A stretch of DNA of 34,652 nt from a virus. The notes under the pieces were generated by a model. It saw nothing but the letters and a program-made list of their open reading frames with translations, ran no database searches and had not been told where the DNA came from. This document shows, one piece after another, positions 16,919 to 25,601 of the stretch; position 1 is the stretch's first letter, and every line of letters starts with the position of its first letter. Where the stretch lies: positions 11,047 to 45,698 of the IMG/VR virus record IMGVR_UViG_3300006621_000087. One strand, given 5' to 3'. The position numbers were made by a program, and so were the translations under genes.

Positions 16919-17050
16919 ATGATTATTAAAATTGAAATTCAGATCGACACTGAAAATGCAAAAGATGTCGAAAAAATGCAAGATCTCTATAGAATTATAG
17001 AGGACCTAGAATACAAGTCAAATGAAGGATACTATGATGATGAAAGTTAA
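16919..17050 (+). CDS. Tiny hypothetical protein (43 aa)
   Basis: An open frame from ATG 16919 to TAA at 17048-17050 encodes 43 residues: a beta-strand of alternating Ile/Lys/Glu, then an acidic helix. It fills the gap between two confident genes and overlaps the start of the next. There is no clear ribosome site, so it may be read by coupling from the upstream gene. Function unknown; could be spurious. Confidence 0.45.
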   Translation: MIIKIEIQIDTENAKDVEKMQDLYRIIEDLEYKSNEGYYDDES

Positions 17051-17744
17051 TGACGTACGTGAATATTTCAAAGGTGAACTCGCCGCTGAAAGATTTACTA
17101 CTGATAAAACTGGTGCTAAAACTATTGAGATGCTTGGTGCATCTTTTATTGCTGACGAAGAATCAATCTTCGGTAAGCCTGCTCCAAAGTATATTCAAGC
17201 TGAATTAGATTGGTATGAAAGCCAATCAACTAATATCAATGATATTCACGGTGATGAAAAAGAACCACCACAAGCTTGGCAATACTCAGCAAATGATGCT
17301 GGTGAAATCAATTCAAACTATGGTCATATCGTATATTCCGATAAGTATTTCAATCAATTTGATAAAGCCTTTATGGAACTATGGAAAAATCCTGACAGCC
17401 GTCGTGCTCAAATGGTTTACAATCGTCCAAGCATATGGGTTGAATTTAATGAAAACGGCAAGTCAGATTTTATCTGTACTAATGCTCAAACGTTCTATAT
17501 TCGTGACAACAAGTTACATATGGTATCTCAAATGCGATCAAACGATGTAGTCTTTGGCTACAAAAATGATTATGCTTGGGCTCAATACTTGATGGATAAG
17601 TTTGTTAGCAAGTGGAATAACCGTGCTATGCAAAATATTCGTGGTACGACTATATCAAAAGGTCCTAAAATTGAAAAAGGTGATCTTATTTGGCAGGTAA
17701 TGAACTTACACGTTTATGAACGCCACTTCAACTTGGTAGATTAA
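17037..17744 (+). CDS. 42: Deoxycytidylate 5-hydroxymethylase (T4 gp42-like)
   Basis: This 235-residue protein resembles T4 gene 42 product along nearly its whole length. It makes 5-hydroxymethyl-dCMP from dCMP and methylene-tetrahydrofolate, so that phage DNA carries hydroxymethylcytosine. Seen: the catalytic Cys147 in SDFICTN (T4 Cys148), the paired Arg of NPDSRR (117-123), MRSNDVVFG (166-174), and Asp178 in YKNDYAW where thymidylate synthases carry Asn. That Asp marks cytosine rather than uracil as the base. The protein ends soon after HVYERHFNLVD, about a dozen residues shorter than T4. Three consecutive ATGs (17034, 17037, 17040) follow AAGGA at 17025-17029; the middle one has the best spacing. 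A dCMP deaminase follows at once. Confidence 0.9.
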   Translation: MMKVNDVREYFKGELAAERFTTDKTGAKTIEMLGASFIADEESIFGKPAPKYIQAELDWYESQSTNINDIHGDEKEPPQAWQYSANDAGEINSNYGHIVYSDKYFNQFDKAFMELWKNPDSRRAQMVYNRPSIWVEFNENGKSDFICTNAQTFYIRDNKLHMVSQMRSNDVVFGYKNDYAWAQYLMDKFVSKWNNRAMQNIRGTTISKGPKIEKGDLIWQVMNLHVYERHFNLVD

Positions 17745-17745
17745 T

Positions 17746-18303
17746 ATGAGTAAAATGGGTGCATACGTTCTTGATCAGCAAATCGAAGAATACGAATCGT
17801 ACTATAATTATATGGGAAGAAGAATGAGAGAAGCAGATAGATACGAATATGATCGTGCTGAAAAATGGCATAACCGGTTTATGGATATGGCTAAACTTGT
17901 CGCTGATTGGAGCAAAGATCCATCAAGTAAAATTGGTGCAGTTGCTGTTAATGATGAACGTCGTATTCTTGCAACAGGATATAACGGCTTTCCAAAGGGT
18001 ATTGAAGATACTCCTGAACGTTTAGCTGATCGTCCCACAAAACATCAATTAGTTATTCATGCTGAAATGAATGCTCTTATGAATGCGTTGTACTCAGGCG
18101 TAAGCCTTAAAGACGCAACTATGTACGTGTACGGATTACCTATCTGTCCTGATTGCGCTAAAAGCGTAATACAAGCCGGTGTTAAACATGTTGTTATACC
18201 AACTGATAAAACCGACAAAGGCGAATGGCAAAAAGTATGGGAAGAAAAAAGTTTACCAATGTTCAAAGAAAGTGGTGTTAAAGTTACAGTACTTGGTATG
18301 TAA
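17746..18303 (+). CDS. cd: dCMP deaminase
   Basis: This 185-residue zinc deaminase converts dCMP to dUMP, feeding dTMP synthesis. Seen: HAE at residues 105-107 (zinc His and catalytic Glu) and PICPDC at 132-137 (zinc Cys134 and Cys137), with the substrate loop [10 protein letters not shown] at 76-85. An N-terminal extension of about 40 residues, acidic and Tyr-rich, precedes the usual domain start. It follows the hydroxymethylase by one base, so two enzymes that compete for dCMP are made together. Confidence 0.93.
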
Positions 18304-18305
18304 TT

Positions 18306-18641
18306 ATGTCGTACCTTGTAACTGATAACTGTGTTAAATGTAAACACACCACGTGCGTATCGGTTTGTCCTGTAGATTGTTTCTATGAAGGCGATGATAT
18401 GTTGGTTATCAATCCAGATGAATGTATCGATTGTGGAGTTTGTGTACCTGAATGTCCTGTTGACGCTATTGTAGCAGACGTTGATTTACCAGAACCAGAA
18501 AGAATCATTTGGATGGAAAGAAATGCTAAATACAGTCAGATATGGCCGAACATTGATGAAGAAAAAGCACCTAAAGAAGATGCTTATGAGTGGGAAAATA
18601 TTCCACATAAATTTGAAACACACATCGAAAAAGTTTCATAA
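18306..18641 (+). CDS. fdxA: FdxA-type 7Fe ferredoxin
   Basis: A 111-residue protein closely resembling bacterial FdxA and Azotobacter ferredoxin I. By that family's numbering shifted by one, Cys9, Cys17 and Cys50 would hold a [3Fe-4S] cluster and Cys21, Cys40, Cys43 and Cys46 a [4Fe-4S] cluster; Cys12 and Cys25 also match extra family cysteines. The core (VTDNCVKC, then CPVDCFYEG, then PDECIDCG) is highly conserved, and the C-terminal 45 residues are acidic. It starts 2 bases after the deaminase. In this genome the possible electron clients are the desaturase, the radical SAM proteins and host enzymes. It could be an auxiliary metabolic gene. Confidence 0.92.
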
Positions 18642-18788: not shown

Positions 18789-20084
18789 ATGTCAAAAATT
18801 AAAGTAGGCGTCATCGGCGTCGGTAATTGTGCTCAATCCCTTGTTGAAGGTATTCAGTACTATAATGAAAATCCCAATGATCACGTAGGACTTATGTATC
18901 CAGATATTGGAGGATATAGTTCAAGTGATGTTGAATTCGTAATTGGTTTTGATGTCGATAGACGTAAAGTAAATCGCCCACTCATCGAAGCATTACGTGC
19001 TAGACCAAACTGTGCTATGAACCACGTTCAAGAGCTATTAGAGTCTGGTAATAATACTCCAGGTTGTGTTACTCCAGGTGCAATGGTTTATTCAAGTCCA
19101 ACCCTTGACGGTGTTGCAGAATGGATGGATTACTACCCTGAAGAAGTATCATTTAGAACAGGTGCAGAAGAAGCTAAATCATTTGATGATATCGTACAGC
19201 TTATTAAGGATACAGGTACAGAAGTTCTTGTTAACTACTTACCAGTTGGTTCTGAAAAAGCAACGCGTTTTTATATCGATGTAGCTTTGAAAGCAGGCGT
19301 ACACTTTGTTAACTGTATTCCAACACTGATTGAAACTAAAGAAACACAACAAATTGAACAAAAGTTTATCAATGCAGGTCTTACCTTCGTTGGTTCAGAT
19401 ATGCGTTCAGCTTGGGGTGCTTCAAGATTATCTGAAGTTTTACAAGGCGCAATGATTGATGGTGGTTTGCATGTAACTTATCACACTCAAACAAATCGTA
19501 TTGGTGGTGCAACTCAAGGTCGCGAACATATTCGTAACGGTGTTACATCAAATACAGACTTTATTAATATGGCTGAAAAAGAACGTCTACATAATAAGCA
19601 TATCTCAAAAGAGAATGTTTTGAAAGGACAGAATACTGTTCGTGGAGTTAATTATGCTGGTGATACATTGTATGCCGGTCCATCATTAACCGTTCTACAA
19701 AAACCAGGTGGTGACTATGTTGGATCTGATAATAAGATTGCAGATCTCGATATCGTAGCATTTGGATTTGGTGGAGCTCGTTATACATTACAAGCTAGAC
19801 TATCTTGCCAAGACTCACCAAACTCTGGTGGTGTGGTTATTTCAGCAATTCGATTCTGTCGAGTAGCGTCTGAAATGGATATTGTTGGTATTCTTCGTGG
19901 GCCAAGTGCTTATACACAGAAAACTCCACCGGTACAGCTTACAACAGCTGACGCAAAGTTTGAATGTGATGCATTAGCTCGTAGAGAACTTACAAATATG
20001 ACAAGACCACAACTTGCATCAGCTAAGCCTAAAGCAAAAGATCTTCCATATACCTACCAGGACGGAAAGACTGATTATGAGTAA
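18789..20084 (+). CDS. ino1: myo-Inositol-1-phosphate synthase (MIPS family)
   Basis: This 431-residue protein matches the prokaryotic inositol-1-phosphate synthases (mycobacterial Ino1 type), which convert glucose 6-phosphate to inositol 1-phosphate with bound NAD. Seen: an N-terminal Rossmann motif VGVIGVGNCAQSL (residues 6-18), NYLPVGSEKATRFY (149-162), a TDFINMAEKERL segment (256-267), and DSPNSGGVVISA (342-353) near the C-terminus, where the KTPPVQL stretch also fits. In the family's DD-x-KS motif, this protein has SDMRS (203-207) with Arg for the Lys I recall as part of the active site, so the reaction may be altered. It is the first gene behind P5, and the next gene overlaps its end by 8 bases. 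Confidence 0.88.
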   Translation: MSKIKVGVIGVGNCAQSLVEGIQYYNENPNDHVGLMYPDIGGYSSSDVEFVIGFDVDRRKVNRPLIEALRARPNCAMNHVQELLESGNNTPGCVTPGAMVYSSPTLDGVAEWMDYYPEEVSFRTGAEEAKSFDDIVQLIKDTGTEVLVNYLPVGSEKATRFYIDVALKAGVHFVNCIPTLIETKETQQIEQKFINAGLTFVGSDMRSAWGASRLSEVLQGAMIDGGLHVTYHTQTNRIGGATQGREHIRNGVTSNTDFINMAEKERLHNKHISKENVLKGQNTVRGVNYAGDTLYAGPSLTVLQKPGGDYVGSDNKIADLDIVAFGFGGARYTLQARLSCQDSPNSGGVVISAIRFCRVASEMDIVGILRGPSAYTQKTPPVQLTTADAKFECDALARRELTNMTRPQLASAKPKAKDLPYTYQDGKTDYE

Positions 20085-20535
20085 AAGAAACGCCTTCGAT
20101 CCATTTGAAAAAATACCATCGAAGTTAATCAACTCATTTGATATTGATGGTGTAATATTTATGGGTGACAGTTTCACTGGTGTGAATCCTGGACCTGATG
20201 ATATTATCATTACTGGTAGATCTAAAGATGATCGTGCAGAAACTGAATCGATGCTCCTAGATAGGGGCATCACCAATCCTCTCTATATGAATAATAAGCC
20301 AGGCGATTATAACGATCGTAGGCAGTCGGGTTTACACAAAGGCATGACTTTATTCTATTTAGAACAAATGGGATATAGATTTGGTTGTCATTTTGAAGAT
20401 GATCCAATACAAATCGAGGCGATTCAACAGATGATGCCTCATATAAAAGTCGTACACCTTAATCATGATTTGATTGATAAAGGTGTTGACACAACTGATA
20501 ATGTAGTTTATAATCAAACTATTCCATCATACTAA
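20077..20535 (+). CDS. HAD-like phosphatase
   Basis: Start at ATG 20077 (8-base overlap with ino1); an in-frame ATG at 20014 lies far inside the neighbour. The 152-residue protein has the four haloacid-dehalogenase motifs: Asp22-x-Asp24-Gly in FDIDGVI, Thr46 in ITGRS, Lys88, and EDD at 107-109. It has no obvious cap domain, so it is of the minimal type that often takes large or phosphorylated sugar substrates. Coupled to ino1, it may dephosphorylate inositol 1-phosphate to free inositol (inference). Its closest general resemblance is to phage and bacterial HAD proteins of unknown substrate. Promoter P6 lies within its 3' end. Confidence 0.75.
   Translation: MSKRNAFDPFEKIPSKLINSFDIDGVIFMGDSFTGVNPGPDDIIITGRSKDDRAETESMLLDRGITNPLYMNNKPGDYNDRRQSGLHKGMTLFYLEQMGYRFGCHFEDDPIQIEAIQQMMPHIKVVHLNHDLIDKGVDTTDNVVYNQTIPSY
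20486..20514 (+). promoter_or_regulatory. Consensus promoter P6 inside coding sequence
   Basis: TTGACA at 20486-20491, a 17-base spacer, TATAAT at 20509-20514, inside the last 50 bases of the HAD-like gene. It points at the gene at 20546, whose ATG is 32 bases after the -10 box. Confidence 0.8.
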
Positions 20536-20545
20536 TAGGTGATAA

Positions 20546-21718
20546 ATGATTGATGCGACTGGAACAAAATTTACTGAAGCTGATAACTTTCAGTCAATGC
20601 ACGCAGATTATCCTTTGGATAAGTACTTTTCTATGTGCGATGTTGAAAAGTTTAGAGACTTTAAATATTTTGTAGAACAAGTTAACCTCAGAGCTGAATG
20701 GCAAAAAGGACTTGCCGAGTCGTACGATTATAAGGAATATGCTCTTAATCCCGATACAGAGTATTTCCACCCTATGATTACATATGATGATCGTATGGTT
20801 TACATTGCAGAAAACATCGTGGGATTATCTGATGATGATCTCTCGATGTATAACAAAATTGGTAATACTATTATCTCTCACTTTTATGGAGCTCGTGGTA
20901 TTCACCAAATTTGTACACGTACTAATGATGTTAAAAAAGCACATGTCGATTTTGAAAACTATTTTACTTCTGGTGAAAGAGAACGAATTCGATATAACCT
21001 GACTCTTGCAAGACCTGCTGGACTCGCTATATACGGTTCTACAGAATTGCGCACTTCTCTATGGGGTGCAGCAAACAAGTACCAACGCGAACGGTTTGGT
21101 GATGATATGGAAGAAGGTACTAATGCTAAACATCCTGGTAACGTAATGGATTGGGTTGCCGGTCTTGGTGAAGACGGTATGTTTGAACGCTTAATGAATT
21201 GCGAAACTATTAGTGATGCATTCAAAGAGCTTACTTCGCATGAGGGCATAGGAAACTATTATGGATTTCACTGTTCTACTTCGAACTCTGTTAACCCTGG
21301 CCTCAAATGGACAAATGATGATAACTTTGTCAAGCCAGGACCGGGAGCCCAATACACTTTACGACTACTTTTTCCAGATGCGCCAAACAGCGTAATTAAC
21401 TCTGGTGATTTAGTTGTATGGTTTAGACACAATCAAAACTTCTTTGGATTTGATAAAATTAAAATACATGAATCAGCTCATAACGTCTTAGATTATAAAG
21501 GCGATAAAATGCTACAAAAAGACCAAACTGAAATGATGACTTATGGTTCTGAAGTTGGAATGTGTCAATACGGTATCTTCTGTAAACTACGTAATGATCG
21601 TAAAGCATGTGATAGACGAGTAGTTACACGTGCAGGAGATAAGGACATTGAAAAAATGCTAAATATAGCTGAGATGAACTTGAAACCACAACCCTCTCTT
21701 GAAGAATTTTTTATATAA
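20546..21718 (+). CDS. aGPT-Pplase/amino acid:DNA transferase-like protein
   Basis: A 390-residue mostly helical protein that I assign to the helix-hairpin-helix/DNA-glycosylase-like families found in thymine-hypermodifying phages (alpha-glutamyl/putrescinyl thymine pyrophosphorylases, also treated as amino acid:DNA transferases or the helical part of hydroxymethyl-uracil DNA kinases). The signature is a HhH-type GIGNYYGFH (residues 234-242) followed by DNFVKPGPGA (259-268). Those proteins act on an activated 5-hydroxymethyl pyrimidine in DNA and attach a nucleophile. Here the phage appears to make hydroxymethylcytosine, so the base may be cytosine. Genes on both sides are tightly spaced. The family call is from motif memory and needs a profile search. 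Confidence 0.55.
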   Translation: MIDATGTKFTEADNFQSMHADYPLDKYFSMCDVEKFRDFKYFVEQVNLRAEWQKGLAESYDYKEYALNPDTEYFHPMITYDDRMVYIAENIVGLSDDDLSMYNKIGNTIISHFYGARGIHQICTRTNDVKKAHVDFENYFTSGERERIRYNLTLARPAGLAIYGSTELRTSLWGAANKYQRERFGDDMEEGTNAKHPGNVMDWVAGLGEDGMFERLMNCETISDAFKELTSHEGIGNYYGFHCSTSNSVNPGLKWTNDDNFVKPGPGAQYTLRLLFPDAPNSVINSGDLVVWFRHNQNFFGFDKIKIHESAHNVLDYKGDKMLQKDQTEMMTYGSEVGMCQYGIFCKLRNDRKACDRRVVTRAGDKDIEKMLNIAEMNLKPQPSLEEFFI

Positions 21719-21728
21719 GGTAAATATT

Positions 21729-22832
21729 ATGAAATCAGTTATTGCAGCTCCTTTTATTCCAATGTCGTTTCAGACAAGCAGCCATAGAGCAGCTCAAGGA
21801 ATAATCTATGCCGACCTATTAAAACATTATCATACAGATAATATCCATGCTAGCTTATCGCGCCCATCTGTACAAGGTGAGGGTGCTAAAGAAGCAAACA
21901 AAACCGAAGACTTTAACGAATACGATAGACTTTATATCTATCACGGTAATGATCGTAAAGCAGACTCTACAGATCTTAACTTCTTTGGTGGTACACGTAA
22001 CTTTCCACATGCGTACAATATTCGAAACATATCACGTTTTAAAGGTGAAGTATATTCTTTAGAAATGGATATGCCTGATTATGCTACAATGCTTGAAAAC
22101 AAATTCAATGGTCATAAGCGTAAAGATGGAACACTTGATACAATGGTACCAGAGTTTCTTGAAGTAGATATTGATAATCTACGTAAAATGCAAGAAAGAG
22201 CAATTACACTTAAACCACAACATCCTACTTGGGATAAACTTTGTATTGGCGATAGTCATGCTATTTGTATGTACCGTGAAGGATGTAATGTTAATTCAGT
22301 ACCATTTAAAACTTTATATGGCGCCTTAGAGATGGGCCTTGAAAAATTCATAAATAAAGATAATGTTAAACATATCGAGTGCTACTTCGGTAACATCGAT
22401 ATTCGACATCATTTATGCCGACAGGATGATACTAAACAAGCAATACGAGATATTGTTGATCGTTATATAGAACAAGTCGGCGCTTTGGATATGGAAAGTA
22501 AAGTGATTTATGAACTACTCCCCATCGAAAACGAAAGACGTAATCTGCCAAAAAGCGGTTGGTATATGGGTGAGAAGTTTTATGGTTCTTGGGCTGAAAG
22601 AAATGATGCAAGACTCTATTTTAAAGAGTACGCAATGCAAAAAGTTCAAGGTACAGGTATTGAATTTCGCGAATGGCTTACACCAAGCTATTACAATGAA
22701 CTTGGAGAGCTTGATTTTAAAGCTATGGAAAAACCAAAATCTGTCCATCTATCACGTGAATACTATCCTTATTGGCAAGGATTGGAATACAATAATATTA
22801 AGAAAACAAGCTTAGAGGACTTTTTTGCATGA
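21729..22832 (+). CDS. SGNH-like hydrolase or acyltransferase domain protein
   Basis: Start at ATG 21729, 8 bases after AAGG; an in-frame ATG at 21699 lies in the upstream gene. The 367-residue protein has an N-terminal part (1-165) without recognised domain and then an SGNH-like layout: GDSH at 174-177 (nucleophile Ser176), GNIDIRHH at 221-228 (oxyanion Asn), and a C-terminal SVHLS at 338-342 where the catalytic His usually sits. SGNH proteins are esterases, phosphodiesterases or acyltransferases. Its place between a DNA-hypermodification-type protein and a C5 methyltransferase suggests a part in base decoration (inference). It ends in an ATGA overlap. Confidence 0.6.
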   Translation: MKSVIAAPFIPMSFQTSSHRAAQGIIYADLLKHYHTDNIHASLSRPSVQGEGAKEANKTEDFNEYDRLYIYHGNDRKADSTDLNFFGGTRNFPHAYNIRNISRFKGEVYSLEMDMPDYATMLENKFNGHKRKDGTLDTMVPEFLEVDIDNLRKMQERAITLKPQHPTWDKLCIGDSHAICMYREGCNVNSVPFKTLYGALEMGLEKFINKDNVKHIECYFGNIDIRHHLCRQDDTKQAIRDIVDRYIEQVGALDMESKVIYELLPIENERRNLPKSGWYMGEKFYGSWAERNDARLYFKEYAMQKVQGTGIEFREWLTPSYYNELGELDFKAMEKPKSVHLSREYYPYWQGLEYNNIKKTSLEDFFA

Positions 22833-24040
22833 AACACGCGACAATCATTCCACTGATCGGTGGTGAGGCATTAGCTTCAACCGACGTATTTGGTTCTAGA
22901 CCAGAATATATCTTATCATACGATGTTTTTAAAGATAACGAAAAACATTTACTTAACTATTGGGATTATGAGGTTCCTTATCATGTACTTGATAAAGGTG
23001 GTTCTGCTCCACTTGGTGAAAAGATTGATGTAATGTCGAGTGTTTGTCCTTGTGCTGGTTTAAGTCAATATCATTCTAAGCCTGGCGAAGAAAATCAAAA
23101 CAACCAATGGATGGAAAAAACAGCTCGATATGTTCTTGGTGAAGTAAAGCCAAATGTATTCTGGGGAGAAAATGCTCCTGCATTAGTTGGTAAGATTGGC
23201 GAGTTTATGCTGAAAAAGCTTAGACAGATCGGTGAAGAAAACGGCTATTCAATGAGTCTATATCTTACAAAGAATATTAAACACGGTGTACCACAATTTA
23301 GAAAGCGTACATTTTATTTCTTCTGGAAGAAAGAACGATTCGGTAATCGTACTCCTTTACTTACATATTATAATCGTCCTCATAAAAAGATCGAAGATAT
23401 TATTGCTGGTGTAAAATCAAACTTCCAAGTAGAACCAATCAATGAAAAGATTCCAAGCCAAGACGATCCTTATTATCGTTATCTGCTTGAAGAAGTTAAT
23501 AATGGTATGACTCATCGCGAATATTACGATAGCCTTAATACAGAAAATGTGCGTGGTAATGATGTAGAGTCTATGATTGAAAAGGCTGGCCACGACTATA
23601 ATGTAGTTGGTAAATGGATGGATAAAGAAGGATATGAACGCGAAGTTCCAAAATGCGAACGTAAATATGAAAAGCTTGCATCTGGCGGTAACATTATGAG
23701 ACGTGGTACTATTGTTCCAAAGGATTACATTGGAGCTTTTGTTGGCCATTATCCAACTGTTCTTACGCATCCATACGAAGATCGATATATTAATTATCGT
23801 GAAGCAATGACTATTATGGGTTTACCTTCTGATTTCGAATTATTAGATCCTAAGAAATCAGTTAATCATATTTGTCAGAACGTACCTTATCAAACAGCTT
23901 CTGATATGTGTGAAGAAATTAAAGCAGTATTTAACAATGATCGTCCTTGGGCCGACACAGATTTCTTATTCCAATCTAACATCAATCAAAAACATGAATT
24001 GTGGAACAAAGAAGAAGCAACTTTAGAAGCTTTCATTTAA
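22829..24040 (+). CDS. Divergent DNA cytosine-C5 methyltransferase-like protein
   Basis: This 403-residue protein keeps the ordered motifs of cytosine-C5 DNA methyltransferases: motif IV VCPCAGLS with catalytic Cys75, motif VI ENAPAL (114-119), motif VIII GVPQFRKRTF (153-162), motif IX-like YREAMTIMGLP (323-333) and motif X NHICQNVPYQTA (346-357). Motif I is unusual: PLIGGEALAST replaces the common FxGxGG form, so cofactor binding may be altered. The middle region (about 200-300) would recognise the target. If the phage uses hydroxymethylcytosine, ordinary methylation of its own cytosines is blocked, so it may act on host DNA, on residual cytosine, or in different chemistry. It is joined by ATGA to the SGNH-like gene. 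Confidence 0.8.
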   Translation: MKHATIIPLIGGEALASTDVFGSRPEYILSYDVFKDNEKHLLNYWDYEVPYHVLDKGGSAPLGEKIDVMSSVCPCAGLSQYHSKPGEENQNNQWMEKTARYVLGEVKPNVFWGENAPALVGKIGEFMLKKLRQIGEENGYSMSLYLTKNIKHGVPQFRKRTFYFFWKKERFGNRTPLLTYYNRPHKKIEDIIAGVKSNFQVEPINEKIPSQDDPYYRYLLEEVNNGMTHREYYDSLNTENVRGNDVESMIEKAGHDYNVVGKWMDKEGYEREVPKCERKYEKLASGGNIMRRGTIVPKDYIGAFVGHYPTVLTHPYEDRYINYREAMTIMGLPSDFELLDPKKSVNHICQNVPYQTASDMCEEIKAVFNNDRPWADTDFLFQSNINQKHELWNKEEATLEAFI

Positions 24041-24043
24041 TAG

Positions 24044-24072
24044 TTGACATTTGTACACATATAAGTTATAAT
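24044..24072 (+). promoter_or_regulatory. Consensus sigma70-like promoter P7
   Basis: TTGACA at 24044-24049, a 17-base spacer, TATAAT at 24067-24072. The -35 box starts 4 bases after the methyltransferase stop, and the dexA-like gene starts 25 bases after the -10. Confidence 0.9.
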
Positions 24073-24096
24073 ATAATCTAACGTTGAAGGAATAAT

Positions 24097-24741
24097 ATGA
24101 AACACTTTATTATAGATTTTGAGACTATAGGTCAACATGCTGCAGTTGTACCTGCTATTGATTGTTCCTATACTACGTTTGAATGGGAACGATTTATCGA
24201 ACAACCTTATTCTTTTAAAGAACTTGTTCTCGGTGTAACTCAAGATAAATTTGATATTAAAGATCAAATGGTTAATCACGGTTGTAAATACAATGAACGT
24301 GATCTTCAATGGTGGTTAGATCAGCCACCAGCGCTTCGCACAAATATGAAGCCAAACCCAGACCTTGATCTTAATCCTGTACAGTTTATGGAAAAGTTTA
24401 TTAATTACCTAAGAGCTGAAGGACCAATTAGTCATTGGTGGTCAAGATCAAATACCTTTGATCCAGTAATACTAGAACGTATTGCTCAAAATGCTGATAA
24501 GAGTTCATTACTAAATGATTACCTTAAGTATTGGGCAGTAAGAGATACTCGTACATATATCGATGCTAAGTTTGATTTTAATGTACCGGGTGGAAAGAAC
24601 GGATTTATTCCTGTATCCGACATTGCAAAATGGGAATACAATTTTAAAGCACATGATAGTAAACATGATGTTGCTGCAGATATTCTGAGGTTACAAGCTA
24701 TCGTAAGAGCTGAAGCAGATTTGGAGCAAATTGAAATATGA
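24097..24741 (+). CDS. dexA: DexA-like 3'-5' exonuclease
   Basis: This 214-residue protein resembles T4 exonuclease A, a DnaQ-fold 3'-5' exonuclease. The DEDD metal-binding residues are visible: Asp7 and Glu9 in FIIDFET, Asp122 in SNTFDPVI, and a C-terminal AHDSKHD (185-191) supplying His186 and Asp191 (DEDDh type). The sequence WWLDQPPALR (72-81) also matches the T4 protein's pattern. T4 DexA is dispensable and its role is unclear; degrading host DNA or trimming primers are options. Behind promoter P7 and in ATGA overlap with a glycosyltransferase. Confidence 0.85.
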   Translation: MKHFIIDFETIGQHAAVVPAIDCSYTTFEWERFIEQPYSFKELVLGVTQDKFDIKDQMVNHGCKYNERDLQWWLDQPPALRTNMKPNPDLDLNPVQFMEKFINYLRAEGPISHWWSRSNTFDPVILERIAQNADKSSLLNDYLKYWAVRDTRTYIDAKFDFNVPGGKNGFIPVSDIAKWEYNFKAHDSKHDVAADILRLQAIVRAEADLEQIEI

Positions 24742-25601
24742 AAATAGAAGTAAGTATTGAAGAATTACGAAAACAAAAAATCTTTGTAGGTACACCTATG
24801 TATGGCGCTCAATGTGCTGGTACATATACCAAAGCATCTACAGATCTTGCTACGATGTGCGCTACTAATGGTATTGGTATTCATTTCTATTACCTATTTA
24901 ATGAGAGCTTGGTTCAGAGGGCACGTAACTATATAGTTGACGAGTTTCTAAGATCTGATTGTACTCATTTATTGTTTATAGATGCCGACATTGGTTTTAA
25001 TCCACGTGACGTATTAGGTCTAATGGCAGTTAACTTAAAAGATCCAGAAGAATATAATATTGTTACAGGTCCTTATCCTAAGAAAACTATTGCTTGGGAA
25101 AAGATTAACAAAGCTGCAGATGCCGGCTTTGGTAAAGAAAACCCATTTGAATTAGAAAACTATGCTGCAGATTATGTCTTTAATCCAGTTAAAAAGCAAA
25201 ACTCATTTAAAATGAATGAGCCAATGGAGATTGGAGAAGGTGGTACAGGCTTTATGCTTATAGCACGTGAAACATTTACTAAGTTTGCTGCAGCTTATCC
25301 TGAACTTGAATACAAACCAGATCATGCTCGTACTGATAATTTTGACGGAAGTCGAATGATTACAGCATTCTTTGATTGTATTATTGATCCAACAACTAAA
25401 CGTTATCTATCAGAAGATTACTTTTTCTGTAAGAAAGCGCGTGAAGCTGGATTGAAAGTATGGATGTGCCCTTGGATGCAATTGCAACATGTTGGGTCTT
25501 ACATCTTTAAAGGTTCTCTTGGACATATGGGACAACTTGGTGCTTCGTTAACAGCCGATAGCTCAAGTAGTAAGAAAAGCTATAAAAAAGGGAAAAAATA
25601 G
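24738..25601 (+). CDS. GT-A family glycosyltransferase
   Basis: This 287-residue protein has a GT2-like GT-A fold: an N-terminal strand with FVGTPMYG (16-23), FIDADIGF with DxD at 82-84, a GGTGFMLI segment mid-domain (acceptor side), and SEDYFFCKKAREAG then QLQHVG near the C-terminus, giving the Glu-Asp and His residues often found at the active site. The last 20 residues are a Ser/Lys-rich tail. Phages with hydroxymethylcytosine often glycosylate it (T4 uses GT-B enzymes), so this is a candidate, along with any virion protein. It is cotranscribed with dexA, before the clamp gene. Confidence 0.75.
   Translation: MKIEVSIEELRKQKIFVGTPMYGAQCAGTYTKASTDLATMCATNGIGIHFYYLFNESLVQRARNYIVDEFLRSDCTHLLFIDADIGFNPRDVLGLMAVNLKDPEEYNIVTGPYPKKTIAWEKINKAADAGFGKENPFELENYAADYVFNPVKKQNSFKMNEPMEIGEGGTGFMLIARETFTKFAAAYPELEYKPDHARTDNFDGSRMITAFFDCIIDPTTKRYLSEDYFFCKKAREAGLKVWMCPWMQLQHVGSYIFKGSLGHMGQLGASLTADSSSSKKSYKKGKK

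Follow-up and report, generated by a model that had tools for sequence, protein, structure and literature searches.

A block of four genes on a 100-kb virus record from IMG/VR (IMGVR_UViG_3300006621_000087) probably encodes a cytosine-hypermodification pathway, in which a cyclitol made by a homologue of inositol-3-phosphate synthase (INO1), most simply myo-inositol, is joined to hydroxymethylcytosine (hmC) by an SGNH-fold protein and its HMUDK_hel-type partner. The window, by which we mean the whole 34.7 kb stretch of this record that was analysed, encodes T4-like replication genes, and the record itself is possibly a fragment. The functional core is the four genes, all on the plus strand: INO1 (18789..20084), a small HAD phosphatase resembling that of PNKP (20074..20535), a DNA-glycosylase-like protein of the HMUDK_hel type without a kinase domain (20546..21718) and the SGNH-fold protein, with an N-terminal region like that of T4 beta-glucosyltransferase, BGT (21729..22832). 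They are tightly packed, the HAD start ATG at 20074 giving an 11 bp overlap with INO1 and gaps of 10 bp separating the HAD gene from the HMUDK_hel gene and the HMUDK_hel gene from the SGNH ATG at 21729, and a C5-methyltransferase (C5-MTase)-like gene overlaps the SGNH gene by 4 bp. A sequence-only reading of this DNA had described such close packing in a possible inositol-using modification operon, and all of the open reading frames (ORFs) that it listed were present with the coordinates and spacing that it gave.

Linkage, target base and cyclitol supply

The four-gene block is real and recurs far beyond chance. INO1 and the 20546 protein each served as queries for scans of IMG/VR, and further profile scans used HMUDK_hel only, one of these being led by the distant protein of Aeromonas phage 44RR. 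Of 169 distinct HMUDK_hel sequences, 146 had more than 2 kb of upstream DNA and were assessable for neighbours within 6 kb. INO1 was found beside HMUDK_hel in 144 of the 146, SGNH in 142 and HAD in 141; this pooled count includes loci initially found via INO1 or SGNH, and the sets seeded by HMUDK_hel only agree with its INO1 linkage. Of the two exceptions, one is phage 44RR, where a symporter takes the place of INO1, and the other is a homologue on a bacterial chromosome; the remaining HMUDK_hel sequences without INO1 begin within 750 bp of a contig end. Well over a hundred different viral sequences carry the block, on T4-like and other backbones, in the conserved order hydroxymethylase, dCMP deaminase, INO1, HAD, HMUDK_hel, SGNH, often then C5-MTase; a second phage group, with a family-B polymerase, has the order SGNH-INO1-HAD-(FkbM)-HMUDK_hel, mostly without C5-MTase. 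These counts strongly support the connection of inositol synthesis with DNA hypermodification that the sequence-only reading had drawn from this one locus.

The predicted modified base is hydroxymethylcytosine, as that reading had guessed, because the dCMP-selecting Asp is present in all of the cassette-linked hydroxymethylases that were checked. The enzyme of T4 gp42 type at 17022..17744 (plus strand; PDB 1b49 E=2e-65), a type that makes hydroxymethyl-dCMP, keeps this residue as Asp179 in FGYKNDYAW, and it was found in 98/98 hydroxymethylase homologues, including 53/53 of those in INO1 loci, and in 13 enzymes examined from further cassette genomes; the thymidylate synthase (TS)-family enzyme in large genomes of the second phage group likewise has Asp. 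Asn occupies the position in gp58 of the hydroxymethyluracil (hmU) phage M6 and in a true thymidylate synthase, and the same residue separates modified from unmodified contigs in MetaGPA (PMC8670742). The functional unit is thus wider on the left than the sequence-only reading had drawn it, the dCMP hydroxymethylase at 17022 being part of the pathway.

INO1 and HAD look able to make inositol. INO1 matches PF01658 at 2e-9, above the cut-off, and Mycobacterium tuberculosis Ino1 (1gr0) over its full length (E=6e-49 across residues 3-390); the NAD motif GxGN is conserved and the C-terminal motif positions K270, K274, K316, D342, S343 and N345 are invariant across ~100 homologues. The match to the NCBIfam mycothiol INO1 equivalog TIGR03450 (9e-59, 199 bits) does not reach the curated cut-off of 638, and we therefore regard INO1 as a homologue of another subfamily rather than filing it as this equivalog. 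The HAD enzyme (phrog_415 2.6e-8), whose motifs DxDGV, TGR, K77 and EDD are invariant or nearly so in 109 sequences, probably releases free inositol. Between HAD and HMUDK_hel, dozens of cassettes carry an FkbM-type methyltransferase gene (PF05050 1.5e-15; L213:3638-4396 and related loci), and the inositol product is probably O-methylated in some lineages.

In the pathway proposed, the gp42-type enzyme would make hydroxymethyl-dCMP that is built into phage DNA, INO1 would turn host glucose-6-phosphate into inositol-3-phosphate, the HAD phosphatase would free the inositol, and SGNH, together with a base-flipping HMUDK_hel, would attach it to hmC in DNA through the hydroxymethyl group. What we infer here is that INO1, HAD and the SGNH/HMUDK_hel pair have these activities, the sequence in which the steps occur, how the bond is formed and that the cyclitol is myo-inositol. 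A mass increment of 162 on hydroxymethyl-dC, which the sequence-only reading had offered as evidence of inositol, would be insufficient as proof, since inositol and glucose add equal mass and the product would be isobaric with glucosyl-hmC.

An exchangeable slot and the symporter of Aeromonas phages

The C5-MTase and SGNH families are far wider in distribution than INO1, and 96 loci having these families but neither INO1 nor HMUDK_hel served as a comparison set. In INO1 phages the cassette occupies a slot between dCMP hydroxymethylase/dCMP deaminase and C5-MTase. In loci without INO1 this slot holds the T4 alpha-glucosyltransferase (AGT; PF11440 2e-79), or an epimerase with a phrog_14998 protein and UDP-galactopyranose mutase, or a different glycosyltransferase, or a set of uncharacterised genes (c12-c13-c9-SGNH), and in T4 itself b-gt adjoins gene 42. 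The INO1 cassette therefore sits where relatives keep an hmC-decorating enzyme. AGT (PF11440) was not found in the record under study or in 15 other cassette records, the positive control being matched; BGT (PF09198) was not found in the 100-kb record, itself possibly incomplete, and was clear in one cassette record only.

Exchange of hmC-decoration cassettes at this slot was seen in swap-site loci including L121, L125, L131 and L179. The combination of epimerase, phrog_14998 protein and UDP-galactopyranose mutase suggests galactofuranosyl-hmC; Aeromonas phage 25 (L005:5776-9047) has UDP-galactopyranose mutase, phrog_14998 protein and SGNH protein genes in a row, and with gene 42 present and no known glucosyltransferase this row is a candidate galactofuranosyl-hmC system. 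The c9 protein of the c12-c13-c9-SGNH set resembles the pyridoxal phosphate enzyme gp52 of phage M6, and profile comparisons of the cassette genes c12, c13 and c17 with the amino acid:DNA transferase family (ADDT), HMUDK_hel and SGNH gave nothing significant. In four cassettes a homologue of T4 BGT (28% identity, nearly full length; L246:8275-9297) is inserted between the HAD and FkbM genes, and phages of this kind may combine both decorations.

In 44RR (ORF233c) and its relatives an SGNH part is fused to an HMUDK_hel part in one protein of ~800 residues. INO1 was not found in 44RR or its relatives, the public phage INO1 matches including no Aeromonas phage, and HAD was not found in 44RR and a relative. 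The gene directly upstream of the fusion encodes an SSF-type sodium symporter. HMUDK_hel occurs in 19 public phage records, all from Aeromonas phages and closely related rather than independent, and exactly these 19 carry the SSF symporter at 80% identity or above. The 44RR HMUDK_hel nests inside a clade of otherwise INO1-bearing members (support 0.98). Most simply, synthesis of a free polyol gave way to its uptake, and phages of the 44RR type seem to bring the polyol in rather than make it. On this reading HAD belongs to supply and not to transfer. On balance, and with some reserve, we favour the wider view that a large group of T4-like and other phages put a cyclitol (inositol or O-methyl-inositol) on their cytosines via a new SGNH and HMUDK_hel pair without a nucleotide-sugar donor, 44RR and 31 obtaining the polyol by the phage-encoded symporter.

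The transfer step and rival explanations

The 20546 protein belongs to PF18723 HMUDK_hel (1.7e-11, 44.5 bits, cut-off 25), which we take to be the family earlier named aGPT-Pplase clade 2. The sequence-only reading had likened it to an aGPT-pyrophosphorylase or amino acid:DNA transferase; it is an HMUDK_hel protein and not the latter, no match to the transferase family PF18724 being found in the Pfam search. Its AlphaFold model (predicted local distance difference test score, pLDDT, 90.5) has as its top PDB fold the DNA glycinyltransferase PUGT (8z2n, prob 0.72), followed by the AlkA/OGG1 glycosylases, and by this model the protein would be a base-flipping or transferase subunit. A P-loop motif is absent from every HMUDK_hel family member examined. 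The base kinase that the sequence-only reading had suggested seeking elsewhere in the genome was looked for as the P-loop hmU-DNA kinase PF18748, which was found neither in the record under study nor in 17 others, phage M6 matching as positive control; ADDT (PF18724) was likewise not found in this record or the cassette records, Cr30, the positive control, being the only match among 18 records. An M6-like route via PF18748 and PF18724 was accordingly rejected for cassette genomes. In M6 itself HMUDK_hel (gp55) is a separate protein adjoining the P-loop kinase (gp54).

For the 21729 protein no significant Pfam match was obtained, and a search of the SGNH family profile against PDB sequences gave no match, the fold search alone succeeding: the AlphaFold model (pLDDT 80) has an SGNH fold and was matched by Foldseek to the PAF-acetylhydrolase 2hsj (E 2.4e-5, prob 1.0). 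GDSH, GxxDxRHH and H340 are invariant and the classic DxxH is absent, and the fold, nucleophile Ser, block III and catalytic His by which the SGNH superfamily is recognised were all found. Over its first ~100 residues the family is similar to the N-terminal domain of T4 BGT: PF09198 matches one SGNH gene at 4.6e-4, the hhalign value rose from 57% with 25 sequences to 90.7% with 187, and T4 BGT outscored all 2,000 shuffled versions of itself against the SGNH family. SGNH is likely to be the catalytic subunit acting on hmC, and HMUDK_hel the base-flipper, these roles being favoured because of the BGT-like N-terminus, the constant partnership of the two proteins and their fusion in 44RR. The pair would replace a T4-type glucosyltransferase and would be like the M6 pair of kinase and HMUDK_hel with the kinase swapped for the SGNH enzyme.

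Several observations weigh against this pathway. No dCMP hydroxymethylase was found in 9/24 large cassette records, although these nine are probably fragments, and the cassette has no constant kinase or nucleotidyltransferase that could serve for activation. HMUDK_hel matches the PUGT fold weakly (E 0.13), and the E-value given by hhalign for the BGT resemblance refers to one comparison. SGNH proteins are also found without INO1, which shows that they are not specific to inositol. The nearest matches of the 44RR symporter are sodium/glucose-type transporters of Vibrio (3e-103), and what it imports may be a hexose; when the symporter is compared with what we presume to be the binding residues of vSGLT, E88, K294, Q428 and Y263 are kept and Q69H, S91G and N260S are changed, a pattern that does not decide the substrate. 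Finally, the next solved INO1 paralogue, 6k96 (4.5e-27), makes a five-membered cyclitol phosphate, because of which the identity of the ring as that of myo-inositol is not certain.

Some of these points bear upon how the transfer is done. HMUDK_hel could itself be a transferase like PUGT, inositol displacing an activated group on the hydroxymethyl while SGNH trims, activates or acylates. The PUGT and glycosylase folds of its model agree with this, as do a G-I/F-G-x-Y/W-x-G-F-like stretch that aligns between HMUDK_hel and ADDT and the fact that HMUDK_hel is tied to INO1 most strictly, while SGNH occurs in other cassettes. However, hhalign between HMUDK_hel and ADDT was not significant, the fold E-value is poor, HMUDK_hel of M6 pairs with a separate P-loop kinase, and the searches for a kinase to pre-activate hmC found none in this record or the 17 others, leaving transfer by HMUDK_hel as a possible but doubtful alternative. 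That the product is another INO1-type cyclitol or an inositol phosphate, rather than free myo-inositol, we consider rather unlikely. The chemistry of 6k96 points that way, so small a HAD enzyme could act on DNA-bound phosphate, and many cassettes have FkbM methyltransferases, which implies that the product is tailored further; against these, Ino1 is a much better match than 6k96 (6e-49 vs 4.5e-27), and INO1 and HAD are both missing from 44RR with the symporter in place, as expected for a free polyol.

Other explanations would remove inositol from the DNA altogether. A sugar might be attached by the GT-A-like or C5-MTase-like gene product, with INO1 having another role, and the closeness of the GT-A-like gene and the BGT homologue inside a few cassettes are in keeping with this; yet GT-A and C5-MTase are also present where AGT or galactofuranose cassettes fill the slot, C5-MTase is near just 56 of the 146 HMUDK_hel genes, and cassette records gave no AGT and a clear BGT once only, making attachment of a sugar improbable. 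INO1 is a general metabolic enzyme and metabolic genes are common in phages, and it could therefore be an auxiliary metabolic gene serving host lipids, osmolytes or signalling that lies in a modification region by chance. We regard this as very improbable in view of how strictly it accompanies HMUDK_hel in T4-like and other backbones, the exchange of its cassette with DNA glycosyltransferases in the slot, and the other DNA-modification genes that adjoin INO1 in phages Moby and Cr30.

These two phages also bear upon the expectation of the sequence-only reading that, were it wrong, relatives would have ino1 and the DNA-modification genes apart. Set against the 144 of 146 sequences with both, public phage records do have INO1 without HMUDK_hel, solely in Stenotrophomonas phages (Menderavirus) and Caulobacter phage Cr30, yet there it is beside other DNA-modification genes. 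In the Menderavirus Moby (L002:9207-14621), INO1 and HAD lie between the GTP cyclohydrolase gene and QueC, tRNA-ribosyltransferase-like and QueE genes, a 7-deazaguanine cluster; in Cr30 (L003:7732-12257), an amino acid:DNA transferase gene (PF18724 1e-52) and a gene with weak similarity to TET-associated glycosyltransferases precede INO1, and HAD lies 0.7 kb beyond it. Taken with the cassette, these settings show INO1 and HAD recurring beside three different kinds of DNA-modification genes.

Neighbouring genes and known modification systems

On the right the functional unit is narrower than had been proposed. The genes of the suggested operon are present in order, but its outer members, the atypical C5-MTase-like gene (22829..24040, plus strand; PF00145 8e-20), the DexA-like exonuclease gene (24097..24741, plus strand; phrog_255 1e-26) and the GT-A-like glycosyltransferase gene (24738..25601, plus strand; phrog_1574 6e-61), were rejected as inositol-specific parts. 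They accompany AGT, galactofuranose and other cassettes and so fall outside the inositol module: C5-MTase was found in 78/96 and GT-A in 80/96 of the loci without INO1, GT-A being a backbone gene with all cassette types, and DexA, also of the backbone, is present or absent independently of the cassette. The PF00145 match of the C5-MTase-like protein begins at profile position 60, and PC, ENAP, QxRxR and CQNVP are kept while motif I is PLIGG, not FxGxGG; the family keeps its catalytic motifs with an apparently diverged S-adenosylmethionine (SAM)-binding N-terminus, and the phages that carry it are expected to have hmC at every cytosine. To the left of INO1 lie a dCMP deaminase gene (17746..18303, plus strand; PF00383 1e-21, phrog_174 2e-50) for dUMP supply, a common neighbour that is not inositol-specific, and a ferredoxin-like gene (18306-18641) recognised by eye from its cysteine clusters and present, among relatives, in the closest ones only. 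Outside phages, a Crocinitomix algicola contig (L266:9563-11592, L343) has a pair of HMUDK_hel genes separated by 13 kb, one of them preceded by a helix-turn-helix gene and followed by a small ORF and the other beside genes that by eye are TIR-/SLOG-like; no INO1 was seen adjoining either, and they are possibly used in defence.

The proposed pathway shares with T4 hmC glucosylation (gp42 and AGT/BGT) a dCMP-type hydroxymethylase with a post-replicative hmC-decorating gene adjoining it, as well as the BGT-like SGNH N-terminus and the AGT that relatives of cassette phages carry in the same slot; unlike T4, this record has no AGT or BGT match, and INO1, HAD, HMUDK_hel and SGNH are present instead, with no UDP-sugar pathway in the cassette. 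With M6-type thymine hypermodification it has in common the HMUDK_hel domain, a DNA-glycosylase-like fold and a hydroxymethyl pyrimidine as the handle, but PF18748 and PF18724 were not found in the searches above, the base is predicted to be hmC and not hmU, and the partner is SGNH. The 5-carbamoyloxymethyl-dC pathway found by MetaGPA likewise has a dCMP-type TS-family enzyme (Asp177) and a neighbouring non-glycosyl transferase on hmC, although that is a carbamoyltransferase using carbamoyl phosphate where inositol synthesis is found here, and "inositol" is absent from the main text of that report (PMC8670742). A C5-MTase homologue also lies inside the phage cytosine-hypermodification cluster of the CmoX/CmoY carboxymethylcytosine pathway, which needs the Cx-SAM synthase CmoA and an amide ligase (PMC12783734), whereas the C5-MTase here looks diverged at its SAM site and is not cassette-specific. 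In the RB69-type arabinosyl-hmC cluster a PNKP phosphatase domain gene, RB69p051, is similarly one of the genes whose presumed role is sugar supply or attachment, but a UDP-arabinose route and a putative arabinosyltransferase are found there (PMC8056088).

In the part of the literature covered by our searches, no description of inositol in phage DNA was found. Petrov et al. 2010 (PMC2993671) noted gene 42 without any glucosyltransferase in phages 44RR, 31 and 25, and did not settle whether such phages add anything to their hmC, or what; these cultured isolates offer a direct test of that question. Known hmC decorations include sugars and carbamoyl, and a cyclitol, if our reading is true, would represent a chemical class new to DNA, with a bond that would probably be an ether rather than a glycoside and that would perhaps resist defences aimed at glucosyl-hmC, for example the BapA hydrolase and the Brig3 glycosylase (PMC13160076). 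The SGNH/HMUDK_hel pair would then offer a novel means of derivatising hmC, one that might also serve for hmC labelling.

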